From a bacterium (GTDB taxonomy: Bacteria > T1Sed10-126), in NCBI GenBank assembly GCA_003554945.1, contig PWHN01000094.1, positions 1 to 21,716 on the forward strand: a stretch of 21,716 bases of DNA, read 5' to 3'. Position 1 is the first letter of the stretch. Each line of letters starts with the position of its first letter. The notes beneath the pieces are model-generated. The model had not been told where the DNA came from. It ran no database searches and worked only from the letters and a program-made list of their open reading frames with translations. The position numbers were made by a program, and so were the translations under genes. This document shows positions 7,385-20,413 of the stretch, one piece after another.

Positions 7385-8998
7385 ATGAATAAAATAAAAC
7401 AATACCAACACGAGGTCTTATTTAAAAATTTTACATCGCTAAAATTTTTATTATTTGTAATTTTCTTGCTGTTCTGTTTTTCTCCCCTCGAAAATTTTAC
7501 CACTAACGCTATGGCCAGCCTCCGTTTGGGCCCGGTTGAAGCTGTGGAGTCTGAAGTTGACGACCTTGAAGAAGCCGCGGAAGAACACTGGCAAAAAATA
7601 TATTACGATAATAATTGTAACTATAACCCTGAACCGGAAGACTGCGCTGAAGAAGCCGGTATCCCCTCGCACGTGATTGACCACTGGTTTGATGACAGTG
7701 AAACACGAGAGGAAATGAACCTTGAGGCAGACTATTATATTAGCCTGCTTTATGACACACAGCCCCTGCTTGATCGCGGAGACGGAGTTTACGGTGGCAC
7801 TGTGAAATTTGCTGATTTTAGCGGAAGCGATACCGACGATCTCGCCCTCAGCGGCATTGATGCAGATAAAAATTATCGATTAAGTTTACATAAAAACCGT
7901 AACGGTGGCTTTAACTCTACTCCGGACACGGAACCGCTGGACGGTGAAGGTGATGGATTAGAACAGTCGTCGCTGATATTTGCTGATTTCAGCGGCGACA
8001 GTGATCTGGATATGGCCGTTGCCGGGCGCGACAGCAATCAGGATGAAAGAATGATGATCCTTGAAAATCAGTCCGGTTTTGCATATGACGCCAGCGCTGA
8101 AAAACCGTTGAAAAATAATGACGACGGAACAGGTGTCTGGGACGCCGCCCTGGCAGCAGGGGATATGACGGGAAATGGCGTTCCAAACCTTGTTGTTAGC
8201 GGTCGAGATGTTAACGATTCACCGCAACTTATTATTTATCATAAGGATAAATATTCGGACACTTACGCAACCCACTGGCAGCCAATGGCTGACACCGGCG
8301 GCGGACTCTGGGGAGGAGACCTTGCGCTTGGAAATTTTACCAGCCGATATGAAGACCTCTCAAGTGTCGGCTACCAAGATCTCGTCGCTGCCGGGCGGAC
8401 CGGTCAACCCGGCGACGGCCAGCCAAAATTAAATCTTTACGATACCCGGCGTAGTGACAGTCCGGCTGAGCTTGACTCTCCTTTTGAGGAAGGACTATGG
8501 TTCTCAGCACTTGATCTCGCTGATTTTACTGGTAACCACAGGCTGGATCTGGCTGCTGCCGGTCTTGATAATAATAACCAGCCAAGACTATTACTCTTTG
8601 AAAACATCGGCGACGGAAATTTTATCCTTCATGATGAACCTATGGTCGATGACGGCGGCGGTCTCTCGGGCGCCGACCTCGAACTCGGTGACCTCACCGG
8701 TAACGGCTATCCTGACCTGGTCGCCGCCGGACGGGATGCTAATTATGATCCCCGGCTTATTGTATTTGTTAACGAAGGTAATGGTGATTTCAAAAAATAC
8801 TCTGAACCGCTGGCTGACAATCCCGAACTCGACGCCGAAGGTCTCTGGTCTGCTTCCGTATCCCTGGGAGATTATACCGGCGACGGTCGCCTGGACCTCG
8901 CCGCCACAGGCAGCATCACCTATGCCCACTACAGTGACCATTACTACCACCTGAACCTCGAACCACGGCTTTTCCTCTTTAAGAATCCCGTCAGATAA
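7385..8998 (+). CDS. Secreted FG-GAP/VCBS-repeat protein, probable seven-bladed propeller
   Basis: A 537-aa exported protein. After an N-terminal hydrophobic segment (residues 16-36, ending before TNAMA) and a short acidic helical region (about 45-125) come seven repeats of 55-65 residues. The core is G.L..A.L.LGD(F/L)TG.G..DL..AGRD.N..PRL.(I/V)(F/Y)....G, for example LGDLTGNGYPDLVAAGRDAN and LADFTGNHRLDLAAAGLDNN. The D-x-T/S-G-x-x-x-x-D-L parts are calcium-binding loops of FG-GAP/VCBS propellers. Seven repeats match one closed seven-bladed propeller, as in integrin alpha chains and many bacterial surface or lectin-like proteins. No C-terminal sorting domain is present. It probably works with the barrel protein encoded 8 bp upstream. 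The ribosome site is weak. Cytoplasmic function is unlikely. Confidence 0.85.
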   Translation: MNKIKQYQHEVLFKNFTSLKFLLFVIFLLFCFSPLENFTTNAMASLRLGPVEAVESEVDDLEEAAEEHWQKIYYDNNCNYNPEPEDCAEEAGIPSHVIDHWFDDSETREEMNLEADYYISLLYDTQPLLDRGDGVYGGTVKFADFSGSDTDDLALSGIDADKNYRLSLHKNRNGGFNSTPDTEPLDGEGDGLEQSSLIFADFSGDSDLDMAVAGRDSNQDERMMILENQSGFAYDASAEKPLKNNDDGTGVWDAALAAGDMTGNGVPNLVVSGRDVNDSPQLIIYHKDKYSDTYATHWQPMADTGGGLWGGDLALGNFTSRYEDLSSVGYQDLVAAGRTGQPGDGQPKLNLYDTRRSDSPAELDSPFEEGLWFSALDLADFTGNHRLDLAAAGLDNNNQPRLLLFENIGDGNFILHDEPMVDDGGGLSGADLELGDLTGNGYPDLVAAGRDANYDPRLIVFVNEGNGDFKKYSEPLADNPELDAEGLWSASVSLGDYTGDGRLDLAATGSITYAHYSDHYYHLNLEPRLFLFKNPVR

Positions 8999-9869: not shown

Positions 9870-10140
9870 CGCCCCGCACCAAGCGTTCCGCTCCCCGCGA
9901 ACTTTTCCCCGCTCGCCCCCTCTCCCCATCGCCCTTTCGCTATCTCGCTCCTCGCTCTTCGCACTTTGATCATACGGTTTTCGCTCCTCGCTCTTCGCTC
10001 CTCGCCCTTTCGCCCCATCTCCCCCTCGCCCCATCGCCCCACCATGAACTTCCGCCCGCTCTCCTGCTCGCCCCTTCGAACATTCCCTTGCTCTCGATCT
10101 ATCTCCCCGCCGGGGAGAGGAAACAGGGGAGGGGGAGAAA
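9870..10140. repeat. Pyrimidine-rich low-complexity tract
   Basis: The plus strand is a long C/T-rich, purine-poor tract made of short variants of CGCTCCTCGCTCTTCGC and CGCCCCATCTCCCC. TCGCTCCTCGCTCTTCGC is exactly repeated at 9945-9962 and 9981-9998. The bias is reversed at the right end (purine-rich GGGGAGAGG... from 10112). Both strands stay open in several frames because stop codons are rare in such sequence, so the apparent Arg/Ser/Glu-rich or Pro/Ser-rich proteins are not believable genes. Triplex or slipped structures are possible. Confidence 0.75.
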
Positions 10141-12144: not shown

Positions 12145-12210
12145 TCCCTCCCCCCTGGAGGGAGAGGGCCAGAGCCTGCCCCGGACTCGATCCGGGGGTG
12201 AGGGGGAAGA
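12145..12210. repeat. Dispersed repeat, copy matching 20645-20688 in inverse orientation
   Basis: Positions 12160-12203 are the exact reverse complement of 20645-20688 (44 bp, read by eye). The core CCCCGGA (12179-12185) pairs with TCCGGGG (12191-12197) over a 5-nt loop. It lies 20 bp after the pckG stop and is followed by a T-run (12228-12235), so it may also end pckG transcription. The rest of the spacer to 12339 shows no gene. Confidence 0.85.
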
Positions 12211-12339: not shown

Positions 12340-13350
12340 TTAGAACTGGTAGCGGAAGCCAAGCCGGTGGACGTCGCCAAAATCACCGTAGGGCAGGTAA
12401 GCGTAGTCAAAGCTCATGTCGTCGTGGCGGTAGCCAAAACCGGCAGTTAGTCCGTCGTCGAGGTCAATGTTACCGTCATAGCCGGCTCTCAGAGCCAGGC
12501 GGTCAAACGGCCACCATTCGACCCCTCCCATCAACCCATATTCTCCCGACTCAAACTGATACTCCAGGTCAACGCTGGTCTCTAACCGCAGCCCGTAGAA
12601 ACGGTAGACAGCTCCACTACGCAGCAGTTCCGGTAAGGACTCGTCTTCTTCGTCAAAAGTGATATCGGTGCCAAGATTGGCAAGCACCAGTCCGGCGGAA
12701 AGCGGACGCTCACGGCTGTTCCAGCGCGTCCCAAGGTCAACTGAGAAAGCATCGCCACTCACGTCATCAAGCTCCTGCCGTACATATCGAGCAGTTACAC
12801 CGTAGGACCAGTTGGCCCAGTTTTGTCCGTAACCGGCGCTTAGAACAAGATCTGAGTTAGAAAAGCTTCCATCGGGTTTAAGAACTCCACTTACCCGGCG
12901 GACTCGGTCCTGACTGCCATAGTCAAGATAACGCAAGCCTAACGCCCAGGTTCCCTCAAACAGACGTTCACGTTCAGTATTTTCCGGCAAGGAAAGGGCA
13001 TAATCTATATTTCCGTAATTGATCCCCTCCGGCAAACTGTAGTAACTGGCATCAAGATCCCGCTCCCAACCAGAGATAGGCTCATCACCGTTGGCGATCA
13101 ATGGTAAAACCGAGGCGTTCAGATCAAGCTCCCGGTTCATAAAACCGAGCCCGCCTGGATTATAACTTAACGCAGTTGCCCCACGCGCTGAGGCCACTCC
13201 GGCTCCCCCCAGGGCAGGAACACGGGCCCCGCCTCCCATCCTCAGCACTTCAGCCGCCGTCTGACCGGCGTCACCGGCAGAGACGGGAGCTGCCCATAAC
13301 AAGCTTATTATTAAAAATAAAGCCGTGGTACTAGCAGATAATTTTTTCAT
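12340..13350 (-). CDS. PorV/PorQ-family outer-membrane beta-barrel protein
   Basis: A 336-aa outer-membrane protein with a signal peptide (residues 1-25, ending PVSA). The mature start AAEVLRMGGGARVPALGGAG and ATALSYNPGGLGFM are the signature of the PorV/PorQ (UPF0164, FadL-like) family, and the rest alternates amphipathic strands, ending LGFRYQF with the terminal Phe expected for barrel assembly. In Bacteroidota PorV carries type IX secretion substrates from the translocon to the attachment complex. Its ATG overlaps the stop of the giant repeat protein gene by 4 bp (ATGA), so the two are translationally coupled. It is therefore inferred to be a dedicated carrier or anchor for that protein. 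A general porin role cannot be excluded. Confidence 0.85.
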   Translation of the reverse strand: MKKLSASTTALFLIISLLWAAPVSAGDAGQTAAEVLRMGGGARVPALGGAGVASARGATALSYNPGGLGFMNRELDLNASVLPLIANGDEPISGWERDLDASYYSLPEGINYGNIDYALSLPENTERERLFEGTWALGLRYLDYGSQDRVRRVSGVLKPDGSFSNSDLVLSAGYGQNWANWSYGVTARYVRQELDDVSGDAFSVDLGTRWNSRERPLSAGLVLANLGTDITFDEEDESLPELLRSGAVYRFYGLRLETSVDLEYQFESGEYGLMGGVEWWPFDRLALRAGYDGNIDLDDGLTAGFGYRHDDMSFDYAYLPYGDFGDVHRLGFRYQF

Positions 13351-16300
13351 CGGATTATCGTCAACTTCCCGGTCTCTTCGTCCCCCGTATCAAGGTCTTT
13401 AACCCGCCAGAGATAAGTTCCACTGGCAACATCATTGCCCGAATTGTTCTCCACGTCCCACTCGTAGGGATCATTATGAGTAGTAACGTCATAAACCAGC
13501 GAGCCGGTTACCGTATAGATTTCAATTTCGAAACGCTCACTGGCTGAATTAAATTCAAAGTCCAGCGATCCTTCATCAGTCCCCGTGGTCTGATCACCAT
13601 CGTTTGGCCGGTAGGGGTTTGGACCAATCAGCATGCTACCGAGCCCCGCTTCATCGGCAGCTGGTCGAGCATTAAGCAGTTGAAAGACAGACATCTCTTC
13701 TACTTCAACTTCTACATAAGTGTCGTGGATAGACTCAGTTTCTTCCAAAATTGGTTCCCTGGACCAGGTATCAAAATCAGTGTCCAGCTTAAACGCTTTA
13801 AGATGCTCAGGATCACGAACTAAATTATCGGGGTTGAAGGGCAGCCTGATCACATAACCGTCATCGTGAACATCTGAAAATTCTATTCTAATTACACTTT
13901 CTTCAACAATCTCCAGGTGTTGATCGCGAGCGTTTCTGTTCGCATTATCAACAGCATTTCGAGTTTCCGGATCAATCACCGTATCACTAATCGTAACAAG
14001 GGTTCCTGAATCAAATTTATCTCCTACACTGCGATCGCAGGCGGGACTGTGGCAAAAGATTGTGTCCGCTACATCCTCAGTGAAACTACGGGACTTACTG
14101 GCTTCATCTCTAAGAAACCTACGACTCTTCTCCAGTTCAGCAGCCGGAAACTCTACCTGAACTTCCCAGGCACCGGCTCCATTCAATTCAAGGTCCTCAG
14201 TGATTTTTTTGTTTAATGAAAAGTCAGCCGTTTCAACCGTGGTCTGGTCCCAGCGCGTTCCATCGCGCCAGGTGGAAATAACGATGGTATCGCCGGCAAA
14301 CACATCAGCTCGTAATCTAACCTCTACCTCAGTGTCTGCTACAAGTTGACTGGTAAAAGGTCTTTGTATAGTAAATTCGCGCGGCGGTCCGGCCAATTTT
14401 ACTGCCGCAGTGTCGGCGACGGGACTTGCTGTATCTGATTCATACAATCGAGCAATCAGGTGATTTTCCGGGTGCTCAAGTTTAACGTCATCAAACTCCC
14501 AGTTGCCGCCCTCGGCCACAGAAGTATAATCATAAAACGGTGTGTCCGAGCCGTCTAATGAGCGCGACATTAGAGCAACTGAATCGCCTGCCCGCGTATG
14601 TTTTGTCCCCCCCGCAACCGCTATCCTATCAGTTCCGGAATCAAGCGGCGCTTCAAAATAGATCCGTGGATCACGGCGCCATATATATACTTGATCAGTA
14701 TCAACCACGTCGTCGTCAACGGATTCAAATTTGGCTACAAGACTGACTGAATCTGACGCCGGCAGTTCTTCCACATCCACCTGCCAGGCCGTATCATATT
14801 CGGTGCCAACACCGACCAGATTCTCAAACTCAGTATCCCCGTCAACAAAAACTGAAACAGTTTCTCCAGCACTACGCTCAGTTGCGCGCCCCTGTACTTT
14901 TAGTTCGGTCGCCGTAGTATCAAAACCCGAAACCGGCGTGTCGATCCAGACGCTGTGTCGATACACCCAGGTCTGCTCACTATCAACACTGCGCTTGCCC
15001 GAATGTTCGGTGTAAAGGTTAGCCTCAATTGTTCCCGTGTCCGGCGGCAGGGGGAACTCCTCAACCCGCCAGCTCTGGTCACTCTGGACGCTGGCATACC
15101 TGGTGTCACCGCCATCAACCGTTACAGCCACAGTATCGCCGGACGGCGTTTGCTTTGATTGGCCGCTAACAGATATGGTTTCCGACGCCGTCGAATACCC
15201 TGCCTCTGGCTCCTCAATAACAAGATTATGCCAGTAAACTTCTATTTGGTGTTCGCCAACCAGCTCTCCCTCACCCGAGTATATCTCAATCTTGATATAG
15301 TTCGTTTTCTTCTGGGCCAGCTCAATATTAGTAAATGTCCCGCTGTCTGTTTCTCCCGGTCCACCCTTTACAGTCATAGAATCAATTTTGTCGTTGTTGT
15401 GACGTAACTCAACAATATTATCCTTCGGCGCCTCGCTCGTAGTAAATCTAACGTCAATCTCATCAGCACTGGTGTCATAGTGATCATGCGGCGGCGACTC
15501 TATTTCAATTAGAGATTCAAGCTGCCTGATTTCGACCGTATCGCTGTGTACCACTCGTGAGCCAGAATCAGCGGTATGAACACGAACCGCCACAATATTG
15601 TTTACCCCCATAAAAAGCGGCTTATCATCAAAGTCCCACTCATAATCTTCTCCCACCTCGCCACTTTCAATCCAGACAGTATCTGCTGTTTCTTCGTCAT
15701 TTATGACCAGCGTATCTTCGTCAGTTTCAGCTTCAATACGCAGAGTAAGCGTATCCCCTTCTTCCGACCCCTCTGAAAGACCGGAATAAGAGAACCTGTC
15801 CTTGAGTGTATCCAGGTCCGTGTCGGGGTCGTCGATCCTCACCTGATGACGACGCACTTCTATTAAATGCGTATCAAAAATTGTTGAACCAATTTCAGTG
15901 TCATAGAGGGTTGCTTCAAGATAGTTGAGGTCCGTGTCAATCCCAACTTCGGAAAAGTGCCAGGGGCTATCTGCTGAAGTGTTGTACTCCCCTGTGTCAC
16001 TAAGTCCAAGATCGCTTACAACCTGAAGCTGTAATGAATCAGCCGGGTCGGCGGCATAGATTTCACCGCCAACTTCTATAGCTGTATCGCCGCTGTCAAA
16101 ATATATGCTGTCCGGCTCATCTATCACGACGAAAGGCCGATAAACGGTCCTGACATCCGTATCGAGCAAGTCAGTAAAACCTTCCTCCGTCTGAGCATAA
16201 ACCCCCACCTGCAGTTCATTTTCGCCGGGGAATAGCGGCGTATTGTTTTGACGCCAATCAGTATCACCATCAATCCCAATAGTTCCTTCTACAGTTGTCT

Positions 16301-19300
16301 CTTGATCATCCTCGCCAAAAATCTGAATGACGAATGAATCTCCCGAACTCGACCCGCGTGAATAACCATAGGCAGGTATTTGGGCTGCCCCGGTAGCATA
16401 GTCGTCTTCCGGCGCTTCAAAATTTATGTCATGCACACGAACAGTTATGCTGCTTGTATCTTTAAGTGCACTGTAAGTATCGCTTTCATATAAATGGGCA
16501 ACAAGTTTGTTAACTCCGCTATCAAAATTTACTTGGGGTTTTAACCAGCCGTCGCCCGTGTCGTTGACAGTGGTATATAAAGTATCTGCCTCTTCGGCCA
16601 TATCGCCACTAATTGCAATAGAATCACCCGGTCTGGCATCTGCAACTGTTCCCCCTAAATCAATTGATGTTGCCCCTGTATTATAAGTATCATCCGCAGT
16701 AACCGGATTAGAGAAGTCAATTTTCGGGTCACGCCGGTAGATTGCAAATGTATCCGAGGTAAGTTCAACATCCTCCGGGCCACCTTCATGTGAAGTAACA
16801 GTAATTACATTTGTGTCACTGATCGCTGGTAACGGCACATTTGAAAAATACCAGCTACTGTCTGCTTGCACATCAACGGGAGGCGTTTCCCCTTCTCCAC
16901 CTGAATCTATTCCACGTACTCTTATAGAGACGGAATCCCCGACTTCACTACCGGCTACCGCCGTCCCTGAAACATCAACATACGCTGCCGTCGTTGAGTA
17001 ACCGTCTTCCAGCCTGGCCTTAAGCGTTGCGGTATCAATAACTATTTTTGCGCTAACAACAGTAATACTGTCAGAATCTAAAACTCGTCCTCCTTTATGC
17101 AGAACCGCTCTAATTTTATTATCCCCGGAGGCTATATTCACTTCGCCAACCCACTCTTCTTCACTGCTGACCGAAACCGTATCCTCGGTGTCCCCATCCA
17201 CCAAAATTTTCACCGTGTCTCCTTCCAATGAGCCTTCACTTTCACCTGCAATCTGGAGCCGGCGGGCCCCAGTGGTATATTCGTCCGCCGGCGAAGTAAT
17301 TTTCAAATCATGAAGGCGCACGGTAATATATTGGGTATCGGTATATTGAGACTGATCTCCATAATGAACAACTGCCGCAATTGTATTTTCGCCCGCTTTA
17401 AGCCTTAATTCTTCTACGGACCATGTGTCTCCACCCGCTAAACCATCAGTCTGTTGGCCAGAATCATAAACATCGTCATTAGCGAAAATCTTTACTACCA
17501 CGGTGTCTGGATCTGATAAATTGGCTCCAAGCGAACCTGAGACATCAATCTTAGCGGCGCCGGTTTCGTAGCCGTCCTCGGGCGACTCGATAACTATTGT
17601 CTGGTGAGGCACAGTAATTGAATCGGAGGCTACAATTTTGCTGGCCGTATCACTGGCATGAAGGTCAACAGAAATTTTATTATTATGAGCATCTATAAGT
17701 CCAACATCCTCAATTTTCCAGGTGGAATCTCCGTTATTCGAACTAACACTGGTAACCCAGGTATCCACGGTATCGGCATCATCAGCAGTTCTAACCAGGG
17801 TTACAGAGTCGCCTTCACGAGCATCAACCGCAGTTCCCGACACATCCACTTTAGCTGCTCCAGTACTCACCCCGTCGGTCGGCTTGTTTATAGAAATTTC
17901 AGGAGAAAGCTGACGAATATTGATCTCATCATCAGCTACGTATACTTCTCTAACACCGTCTTTGATCATAACTCTGAGATTATTCCATCCCCCGGTATCA
18001 AGAGCAACTTCTCGAGCCCAGTCGGTATTACGACCACCGGGAGTTATTTTTGCAACTTCTTCATCGTTTCGATAAATAACAACGCTATAACTTATTTCAG
18101 CGCCTTCCGGTCCACCAAAGGGAGCATCAGCTATAGTCCCGCCCAGGGCAACTGATTCAGCGTAAGTTTCACTGTCATCTTCTGGAAAATTAATTGAAAT
18201 ATCTGGTTCCAGGTGCTCGACTGATACAGTGTCAGATGCTACAACTGAATCGTCTGCTTCATGAACAATTTCGGCTTCCAAAACAGTAATATCTCCGGAT
18301 TCCAGGTCAATTTCTGAAATTGACCAGGACGTGCCATCAACAGTAGTTGTTGAGCCATTATCCTCAGCGCCGGTCACCCGCACTATCCAATCAGCATCCA
18401 CCTCAAACGCAGTATTAGTTCCGGAAGCGGTTATAGAATCAGCAGTGGTAAGCTGTCCGTCCAGGGGTGAAGTTATCCTGATAACACGCCGGTTTACAGT
18501 AATCTCTGCCATATCAGCCTCGTAAGAGTCAGTATCTGACTCGTATAATGTCGCGATGATCTCGTTTTCCCCGTCCGCAATTGGCCAGTCCGCAACCGTC
18601 CAGGTATCTCCCGAACTAACTTTAGTTATAGCCGTATCTTCCCCCGTTGAAATCACAACAGAGTCACCCACGTGAGCATCCGTTACTTCACCTGCAAGAT
18701 CAACCTCACGGACATCAGTATCCAACTCTTCTCCAGTTTCTACCGGGACAGTAAAATCTATTTCACCAAACGAATGTTCAACATCAATCTCCGCAGTATC
18801 GACGGCCGGTTCAGACATTCCCCGGGGATGGATTGCGGCAACTACACTGTTGGTAATATCAGTGTCTAGACGTATTTTTCCGCTCCAGGTATAATCAGCC
18901 GCTTCAATTGAAACCGTATCCTGTAAATAACCGTTAACAACCAATGATACAGAGTCACCTTCTAAGGAACCAAGCGAACGACCTTCGATTGATATCTCCT
19001 GCCGACTGACACTATCACCGTCAGTCGGTGTATCAATAGAAATATCGTGGCGGCGAATCTGAATTGTATCCGAATGCAGTGGAGAGTCAGGCTGATGCTG
19101 ACTGTAGATTGTTGCTGTAACGGTCTGCAGGCCAGTATCAAGGGCCACTTCTGTTGACCATAACGTATCGCTTACAATGCCTTTTGAGACAACTGTATCA
19201 CCGCCAACTTCTGTTTCCCTGATCACCTCCACAGTGTCCCCGTCCTCTGAACCAGGAGCCTCCCCTGAAACAGTTATCGTTTCGGGACCGGTATCGTGAC

Positions 19301-19742
19301 CATCATCAGGAGACTTGATTTCAACTTCATGCCGACGAACCATAATATAAGCCGTATCAATAATAACTTTAGGATCAAGCGATGATTTGGCTATGGCCTC
19401 TATTTTGTTATTACCGACTTCAAGCTCTTCTTCATCTGCTAACTCTTCAGCCGAAAAATTCCATGCCGCTGTATCTTCTTCTTTATCCCCCGCAAAATTT
19501 CCATTTATTCGCAACCGCACCAATTCAATTGCTGGATCCGCTGCAGTTCCTGAAACATCAACAGCAGTTGCACCCGTCTGATAACCAGAATCTGGAAAAT
19601 TAATTGCTACTGAATCACTCACAGCACCAGCAAAAATTGGAGAATTAAAAAGAGAAATGAGAGAGGCCACGCAAGCTACCAAAAGGAAGGTTGAGGAGAG
19701 AGAAAAGAAACTAAAATTTCTATCCTGCGCCAAAAAATTCAA
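13347..19742 (-). CDS. Giant secreted Ig-like-repeat protein with FlgD-like C-terminal domain
   Basis: About 2131 aa. A signal peptide (hydrophobic stretch FSLSSTFLLVACVASLISLF, cut near IFAGA) is followed by 18 clear Ig-like repeats of 85-105 residues and one degenerate repeat. Each begins like I.I.SP.DGY.TGA..IDVSGTA...GDSV and ends VD(S/T)D.I.VRRH. Then come a non-repeat region with the only mature cysteines (FCHSPACD) and a C-terminal FlgD-Ig/type IX-like sorting domain: IGPNPYRPND, FEIEIYTVTGSLVYDV, NDVASGTYLWRV and a closing KLTIIR. The protein is very acidic and rich in Asp-Thr pairs. TTG at 19742 is the preferred start: GAGGT (complement of 19750-19754) lies 7 nt upstream. An in-frame TTG at 19808 falls inside a dispersed repeat. 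It probably forms a long surface stalk or adhesin; the coupled PorV-like gene follows. Confidence 0.88.
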   Translation of the reverse strand: MNFLAQDRNFSFFSLSSTFLLVACVASLISLFNSPIFAGAVSDSVAINFPDSGYQTGATAVDVSGTAADPAIELVRLRINGNFAGDKEEDTAAWNFSAEELADEEELEVGNNKIEAIAKSSLDPKVIIDTAYIMVRRHEVEIKSPDDGHDTGPETITVSGEAPGSEDGDTVEVIRETEVGGDTVVSKGIVSDTLWSTEVALDTGLQTVTATIYSQHQPDSPLHSDTIQIRRHDISIDTPTDGDSVSRQEISIEGRSLGSLEGDSVSLVVNGYLQDTVSIEAADYTWSGKIRLDTDITNSVVAAIHPRGMSEPAVDTAEIDVEHSFGEIDFTVPVETGEELDTDVREVDLAGEVTDAHVGDSVVISTGEDTAITKVSSGDTWTVADWPIADGENEIIATLYESDTDSYEADMAEITVNRRVIRITSPLDGQLTTADSITASGTNTAFEVDADWIVRVTGAEDNGSTTTVDGTSWSISEIDLESGDITVLEAEIVHEADDSVVASDTVSVEHLEPDISINFPEDDSETYAESVALGGTIADAPFGGPEGAEISYSVVIYRNDEEVAKITPGGRNTDWAREVALDTGGWNNLRVMIKDGVREVYVADDEINIRQLSPEISINKPTDGVSTGAAKVDVSGTAVDAREGDSVTLVRTADDADTVDTWVTSVSSNNGDSTWKIEDVGLIDAHNNKISVDLHASDTASKIVASDSITVPHQTIVIESPEDGYETGAAKIDVSGSLGANLSDPDTVVVKIFANDDVYDSGQQTDGLAGGDTWSVEELRLKAGENTIAAVVHYGDQSQYTDTQYITVRLHDLKITSPADEYTTGARRLQIAGESEGSLEGDTVKILVDGDTEDTVSVSSEEEWVGEVNIASGDNKIRAVLHKGGRVLDSDSITVVSAKIVIDTATLKARLEDGYSTTAAYVDVSGTAVAGSEVGDSVSIRVRGIDSGGEGETPPVDVQADSSWYFSNVPLPAISDTNVITVTSHEGGPEDVELTSDTFAIYRRDPKIDFSNPVTADDTYNTGATSIDLGGTVADARPGDSIAISGDMAEEADTLYTTVNDTGDGWLKPQVNFDSGVNKLVAHLYESDTYSALKDTSSITVRVHDINFEAPEDDYATGAAQIPAYGYSRGSSSGDSFVIQIFGEDDQETTVEGTIGIDGDTDWRQNNTPLFPGENELQVGVYAQTEEGFTDLLDTDVRTVYRPFVVIDEPDSIYFDSGDTAIEVGGEIYAADPADSLQLQVVSDLGLSDTGEYNTSADSPWHFSEVGIDTDLNYLEATLYDTEIGSTIFDTHLIEVRRHQVRIDDPDTDLDTLKDRFSYSGLSEGSEEGDTLTLRIEAETDEDTLVINDEETADTVWIESGEVGEDYEWDFDDKPLFMGVNNIVAVRVHTADSGSRVVHSDTVEIRQLESLIEIESPPHDHYDTSADEIDVRFTTSEAPKDNIVELRHNNDKIDSMTVKGGPGETDSGTFTNIELAQKKTNYIKIEIYSGEGELVGEHQIEVYWHNLVIEEPEAGYSTASETISVSGQSKQTPSGDTVAVTVDGGDTRYASVQSDQSWRVEEFPLPPDTGTIEANLYTEHSGKRSVDSEQTWVYRHSVWIDTPVSGFDTTATELKVQGRATERSAGETVSVFVDGDTEFENLVGVGTEYDTAWQVDVEELPASDSVSLVAKFESVDDDVVDTDQVYIWRRDPRIYFEAPLDSGTDRIAVAGGTKHTRAGDSVALMSRSLDGSDTPFYDYTSVAEGGNWEFDDVKLEHPENHLIARLYESDTASPVADTAAVKLAGPPREFTIQRPFTSQLVADTEVEVRLRADVFAGDTIVISTWRDGTRWDQTTVETADFSLNKKITEDLELNGAGAWEVQVEFPAAELEKSRRFLRDEASKSRSFTEDVADTIFCHSPACDRSVGDKFDSGTLVTISDTVIDPETRNAVDNANRNARDQHLEIVEESVIRIEFSDVHDDGYVIRLPFNPDNLVRDPEHLKAFKLDTDFDTWSREPILEETESIHDTYVEVEVEEMSVFQLLNARPAADEAGLGSMLIGPNPYRPNDGDQTTGTDEGSLDFEFNSASERFEIEIYTVTGSLVYDVTTHNDPYEWDVENNSGNDVASGTYLWRVKDLDTGDEETGKLTIIR

Positions 19743-19783
19743 TGAATTTACCTCACATAGGTTTCGGTCTTGATCTAAAAGAT

Positions 19784-19995
19784 TGTCAATGCGGACCACG
19801 ATCCGCAATCCATTTTAAGTTCTTAGTTTCCAGTTTATAGTTTAAAGTTTCCAGTTGTAGGTTTTAACCCGTAACTCGCAACCTGCAACAAGTTTTTGAG
19901 TCTTGAACGATAACCGCTTAAATTCAAGATGGATTCCGGCTCGCGGGCCGGAATGACGTCAAGTTCAATGTCAAGTTCAATGTCAAGCTCAAGTT
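19784..19995. repeat. CGTCATTGCGG / CCGGAATGACG repeats and 12-bp tandem repeat
   Basis: 19790-19818 holds a degenerate TGCGGACC...CCGCAATCCAT unit. 19929-19957 holds AGATGGATTCCGGC with GCCGGAATGACG, the same unit in the other orientation. GTCAAGTTCAAT is tandemly repeated at 19958-19969 and 19970-19981, with a third variant GTCAAGCTCAAG at 19982-19993. The area between (19819-19928) has only short AT-rich repeats (AGTTTCCAGTTTATAGTTT). No gene is visible. Confidence 0.75.
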
Positions 19996-20087
19996 TCCCC
20001 CACCTTAGTCCTCCCCCGCCAGGGGGGAGGAAATGTTCTGGGGCCGGAGGCCGGAATGACGTCAAATTCAAACTTGATTCAACGCTC

Positions 20088-20120
20088 GTCATTGCGGACC
20101 GCGATCCGCAATCCATCTGA
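20088..20120. repeat. CGTCATTGCGG...CCGCAATCCATCT repeat unit
   Basis: CGTCATTGCGG is closed by CCGCAATCCATCTGA with inner palindrome TTGCGGACCGCGATCCGCAA. It matches the unit at 9127-9164, including the following GTTC. A related CCGGAATGACGTCAA copy lies just to the left (20050-20066). Confidence 0.8.
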
Positions 20121-20121
20121 A

Positions 20122-20290
20122 GTTCAGTATTCAGTAATCGGTGATCGGTAATCGGTGTAAAACGTGAAAACCGAATAAATCAGTAATCGGTGATCAGTAA
20201 GACCGGGGTAACCGGTAGTCGGTGATCGGTTTTGACTTTACTGATTACTGATTACTGAACTTTACTGATTACCGATTACTGAACTTTAAT
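20122..20290. repeat. CAGTAATCGG low-complexity foldback array
   Basis: CAGTAATCGGTGATC is exactly repeated at 20132-20146 and 20181-20195, with many shorter variants (GGTAATCGG, GGTGATCGG). The right half carries the reverse complement, e.g. ACCGATTACTGAA (20271-20283) against TTCAGTAATCGGT (20130-20142). The whole can fold back on itself. Units are too short and irregular for CRISPR. Confidence 0.8.
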
Positions 20291-20413
20291 GACGTTCTGT
20301 CTGTAAGTCATTTCGTATTCGTCTGACGCCTTCACCGCCATTGAGGGCCTGAACAAAACAGATTTTGGACAAATAACGGCTGCTCGAACCACAAGAGCGA
20401 CACGTACCTGTTT

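Follow-up and report, generated by a model that had tools for sequence, protein, structure and literature searches.

The window, a stretch of 21,716 nucleotides of bacterial DNA, carries on its minus strand a gene for a giant repeat protein, and the stop codon of this gene overlaps the start of a gene for an outer-membrane barrel. We refer to the giant protein as the cargo and to the genome that holds the window as the source genome (G000). The features of the locus are listed below, with the basis of each assignment.

13347 to 19742, minus strand: giant cargo gene, 2131 aa, with a TTG start at 19742 and GTGAGG upstream.
19623 to 19742, minus strand: apparent Sec signal peptide, ~40 aa, ending ...NSPIFAGA, recognised by eye.
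14106 to 19610, minus strand: 19 Ig-like repeats of 87-111 aa each, placed by leave-one-out profiles, the last by eye.
13350 to 13634, minus strand: FlgD-like or type IX-like sorting domain, 95 aa, from Pfam, profiles and predicted fold.
13347 to 13350, minus strand: ATGA, where the cargo stop overlaps the barrel start by four bases, read from the sequence.
12340 to 13350, minus strand: PorV/PorQ-family 14-strand outer-membrane barrel, 336 aa, from NF033709, a structural model and fold search.
12146 to 12168, minus strand: terminator-like hairpin 3′ of the barrel gene, a consensus match only.

The longest open reading frame for the giant cargo spans 13347-19808 on the minus strand. A ribosome-binding-like GTGAGG ends 8 nt upstream of the TTG at 19742, the start chosen here. 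The length of about 2131 aa and the coordinates given in a preliminary description of this DNA are right. The protein runs from an apparent signal peptide through ~19 Ig-like repeats and a linker to a 95-aa C-terminal domain (CTD). All of the 19 repeats counted in that description could be placed: 18 were recovered by a profile of the remaining repeats (E 3e-25 to 3e-11), and repeat 19, the last, was assigned by eye alone. Pfam gives Glucodextran_B matches in five stretches of the protein, and at the C-terminus FlgD_ig at 28.2 bits (cut-off 27), with CHU_C and Por_Secre_tail weaker. We also see that Asp-Thr pairs occur at ~3-4 times expectation in giant proteins of the source genome, using all codon combinations (68 against 22.6 expected at window 13347-19742, and 70 against 18.4 expected at L048:12286-18999).

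The CTD was compared with known sorting domains by profile and by fold. A profile of 18 such CTDs searched against the PDB matched the CTDs of PorU, PorZ and type IX secretion system (T9SS) cargo, and among NCBIfam models the window CTD matches that of the PorZ C-terminus best. Its predicted fold, which contains the C-terminal Ig-like β-sandwich present in PorU, PorZ and cargo CTDs, lies nearest to PorU, Vpr, the mirolase CTD, PorZ and the NucA CTD, with FlgD and other Ig-like folds scoring too. Against TIGR04183, the T9SS type A sorting domain, the window CTD alone reaches 21.2 bits, under the cut-off of 23; all 18 of the CTD relatives match this model at E <0.1 (best 1.6e-8), and one of the 18 matches TIGR04131 (type B). 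Scanned alone against PF13585, a family tied to type B sorting domains (PMC10202324), the window CTD scores 29.4 bits (cut-off 27) while missing the type A cut-off, so that the class is split. It is a FlgD-like domain related to type IX CTDs, with type A versus type B undecided by the cut-offs; the earlier assignment to a FlgD-like domain of the type IX kind is thus borne out by Pfam, the CTD profile and the predicted fold.

The barrel scores 139.8 bits against NF033709, the PorV/PorQ family, and passes its cut-off of 90. For PorV proper (NF033710) it scores 57.6 bits, under the equivalog cut-off of 250, and for PorQ proper (NF033711) 92.5 bits, which is above the PorV score and under the equivalog cut-off of 220. 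Among solved structures, a profile of 15 barrel relatives matches PorV best (6h3i_F, E 3e-29), with TodX behind. An AlphaFold2 model of the window barrel (pLDDT 81) has 14 strands, and its nearest solved fold is PorV 8gl6_F (E 6e-16, Z 30.8), followed by FadL (VIA Z ~28). Even at E up to 1, PF11751 (PorP/SprF) did not match the window barrel, and no plasmid record encoding this barrel was found. The overlap of the cargo stop with the start of a PorV/PorQ-family gene, noted previously, therefore holds. A general porin with unrelated neighbours is not what we find: the family score and the nearest structure rule out a general porin, and neighbouring genes that encode CTDs recur, as described below. 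We regard it as highly improbable that the barrel takes up small hydrophobic molecules in the manner of FadL, with the giant protein unrelated to it or serving as a ligand-gathering surface protein. The fold is indeed FadL-like, as the second-ranked match indicates, but the PorV/PorQ cut-off is passed, the matches listed for the window barrel include no FadL/Toluene_X, and among the pairs described next the passengers vary widely while the CTD is the common element.

The source genome (2.2 Mb, 93.5% complete, with roughly 2,000 genes as estimated from genome size) contains 11 near-complete PorV-family genes (C108 scores under the family cut-off), and 10 of these come immediately after a CTD gene, with the same 4-base overlap in five of the 10 pairs. 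The eleventh falls in the same cluster as one of the paired barrels, and contig C118 starts with a fragment of another barrel. Counting from the other side, as had been proposed, the CTD profile finds 12 CTD genes, with a barrel directly next in 10; of the remaining two, one is followed by a second CTD gene and then a barrel, and the other, on C36, is without a barrel. The passengers of the paired cargo include Ig repeats, subtilases, LRR/GLUG proteins and carboxypeptidase-regulatory domains. Because pairing recurs in this way, in the source genome and in other groups, chance adjacency of cargo and barrel is excluded. On contig C102 (L045:5038-9980), genes for ExbB, ExbD, TonB and a TPR protein of 908 aa come after one CTD gene and two genes of the PorV family, and may form an energy module close to these barrels.

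In the sister genome, G001, whose sample name, CSSed10, belongs to a soda-lake sediment survey (PMC6146748), there are seven CTD-barrel pairs, 44 CTD matches and ~8 barrels. Most G001 cargo must therefore be without a private barrel, and one-to-one dedication of cargo to barrel is not universal across genomes. In other groups a CTD gene lies directly upstream of 45 of the 73 barrels sampled; these barrels come from named genomes (Elusimicrobia, Aerophobetes, Hydrogenedentes-labelled MAGs and others) and were retrieved by similarity to the window barrel, so that the fraction describes this sample and not a random survey. Endomicrobia/Ruminimicrobiellum-type loci are the chief exception. Candidate CTD-barrel fusions were rejected, as the long frames seen in G029 and elsewhere turned out to be extended barrels or overlapping frames. 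Barrels fused to TPR domains occur in the source and sister genomes, and barrels fused to OmpA domains in other genomes, which by analogy with PorE suggests periplasmic anchoring. Further PorV-family barrels in other genomes are fused to OmpA/CARDB or to a Reg_prop propeller (L179:5270-8218, L180:2594-5644 and L181:2741-5200).

Distances among 17 CTDs were then compared with those among their 17 barrels. The two sets correlate with r=0.88 over the 17 pairs (0.77 for the source genome only, p 0.0003), and with r = 0.87 when passenger similarity is partialled out. The pairs C6a/C6b, C118b/C45 and C79/G1C119 have passengers in common, yet the similarity of their CTDs and barrels is only 27-31%; for C6b and C23, which show little passenger similarity, the corresponding figures are 48% and 42%. 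These mismatches indicate that passengers passed from module to module without disturbing the match between CTD class and barrel class. Linkage alone could yield such matched divergence: the cargo gene has its CTD at the 3′ end, next to the barrel gene, so that a single exchange of this stretch would move the two together, and the co-divergence could reflect no more than this.

Divergence matched through linkage alone would also fit an account in which the barrels are interchangeable, recycled PorV-like shuttles whose gene order was inherited from a duplicated porU-porV-type pair and carries no cargo specificity. The many barrel-less CTD genes of G001, some with CTDs very like paired ones, fit that account, as does a C25 peptidase gene that precedes a PorV-family gene in G004. 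We nevertheless think it rather unlikely. The count in the source genome is near one-to-one, about eleven barrels would be superfluous if one sufficed, and passengers changed while CTD and barrel classes remained matched. An ancestral porU-porV order as the whole explanation was rejected, since no C25 peptidase was found in the source genome and the partners scanned are diverse. The earlier idea of a dedicated, co-encoded pair is supported in so far as the gene pairs recur and diverge in step; what weighs most against strict dedication is G001, where CTD genes far outnumber barrels.

A search of the source genome for type IX parts, as advised in the preliminary description, returned an N-terminal fragment of SprA at a contig end (52% identity to the G001 protein, E 2e-24), while PorU, GldM and GldN went undetected; the genome is thus not devoid of type IX components. 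TIGR04189 gave no SprA match in the source genome, where the fragment came to light with the sister protein as query; the C-terminal half of SprA was not found in the source assembly. The SprA-like gene of G001 is itself spread over two contigs, and Pfam gave no match on the SprA-like proteins. A profile of the sister protein with fuller relatives matches SprA 6h3i at 1e-156, and a model from the fuller relatives alone finds the G001 protein at 3e-55. With sequence models, GldM/PorM and GldN/PorN were not detected in G000, G001 or any SprA-bearing genome tested; the GldM and GldN models score strongly in G062 and G203. A PorU-type C25 peptidase was not found by sequence models in the incomplete assemblies of G000, G001, G029 and G038, and C25 peptidases were found in 9 of the 14 genomes searched. 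All of these absences are bounded by the sequence models and by incomplete assemblies, the source genome being 93.5% complete. Eight other genomes (G002, G004, G010, G025, G039, G045, G055 and G058) combine SprA with C25 peptidases, with GldM/GldN undetected. The pattern of gene content suggests widespread SprA-type export outside Bacteroidota in which the known motor has no part. The source genome itself apparently belongs outside that phylum, as had been suspected: the GldM/GldN-bearing genomes are listed as related to it only at the level of the same domain, and the nearest relatives of the window barrel are in unclassified MAGs and other phyla.

Because the pair presumably requires SprA, it is not a self-contained export route. 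This, together with the missing PorU, GldM and GldN matches, goes against the earlier suggestion of a compact variant: judged by the parts recognised, the route is reduced or different, not a compact copy of the Bacteroidota system. In two-partner secretion, cargo and barrel genes are likewise adjacent and one-to-one. An export of that kind, in which the barrel itself would pass the adjacent cargo through the outer membrane without SprA, would suit the similar layout seen here, the mere fragment of SprA assembled in the source genome, and G027, where barrels are present and a SprA match is absent. The 14-strand FadL/PorV-type fold is known, however, as a shuttle class and not as a protein channel, and the sister genome encodes a SprA-like protein; we consider SprA-free export very unlikely.

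The reading we favour, and think probable, is that the pair comprises a surface protein and its own PorV/PorQ-class carrier, with the cargo exported via SprA and held at the surface. Both proteins would cross the inner membrane by Sec, and the barrel would fold into the outer membrane. The cargo would exit via the SprA-type translocon, and its CTD would be caught outside by the barrel made from the same mRNA. Since no PorU sortase was found to remove the CTD, this domain would stay uncleaved and the cargo would remain docked. A barrel held in this way would be consumed instead of recycled, and consumption without a sortase would account for the overlapping start, through which barrel and cargo are made together. 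Several published observations are relevant to these steps. PorU-PorV and PorZ-PorQ are surface pairs, and porU mutants accumulate PorV-bound cargo (PMC5562754). The cognate barrel used by type B cargo of F. johnsoniae is usually the product of the next gene downstream, and the authors argue for matched amounts of the two (PMC12618676). Type B cognate barrels have been proposed as surface anchors of cargo (PMC9143113), and a review suggests that cognate PorV-like barrels may shield the CTD from cleavage (PMC10202324).

The arrangement fits the logic of type B cargo/SprF and PorZ-PorQ, here with a PorV/PorQ-class barrel. As with the F. johnsoniae type B cargo/SprF pairs (PMC12618676, PMC9143113), a large surface protein with a CTD is encoded directly before its own 14-strand barrel, and there are several pairs per genome; unlike them, the barrel is PorV/PorQ rather than PorP/SprF, the CTD stands closer to PorU/PorZ and type A CTDs, and the host is apparently outside Bacteroidota. 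In P. gingivalis PorZ-PorQ and PorU-PorV (PMC5562754), a PorV/PorQ-family barrel also holds a CTD protein at the surface, as predicted here, but those are single pairs forming an attachment machine, in contrast to ~ten unlike passengers in the present case. The PorV shuttle for type A cargo shares the barrel family and a related Ig-like CTD, whereas one PorV serves all cargo there and the barrels here are multiplied and paired by gene. Of the Bacteroidota T9SS, SprA, a PorV-family barrel and Ig-like CTD cargo are recognisable, while GldM, GldN and C25/PorU are undetected in the source and sister genomes. The parts belong to known families; described systems show neither this arrangement nor the set of type IX parts detected here. 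In the open full-text literature we found no description of this layout of cargo and PorV/PorQ barrel, and no paper naming both Elusimicrobia and PorV.

To our knowledge, T9SS reviews confine the system to the Bacteroidota/FCB group and describe a single PorV serving all type A cargo. PorV-family barrels that are multiplied and paired with cargo, apparently outside Bacteroidota/FCB, differ from this one-PorV picture. The pairs offer a natural test of what fits a CTD to its barrel, and they raise the question of how SprA-type export works in genomes that yield neither the known motor nor the known sortase. More tentatively, it is possible that a reduced type IX route exists outside Bacteroidota, in which SprA and CTD cargo are kept, the GldLM/PorKN motor is lacking and energy comes from elsewhere; in this lineage there would be no PorU, and each cargo would be held permanently by a PorV/PorQ barrel of its own, in some cases fused to TPR or OmpA parts.

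Two further features of the window are recorded here. Window 7385-8998 encodes a protein of 537 aa that has FG-GAP repeats and apparently a signal peptide, and the CTD profile found no CTD of the cargo class in it. Finally, we see intergenic repeats at window 19778-20300 and 9884-10081, composed of ACTGATTACTGATTACTGA-type units, CGTCATTGCGGACCGCGATCCGCAATCCA-type inverted repeats and C-rich TCGCTCCTCGCTCTTCGC units.
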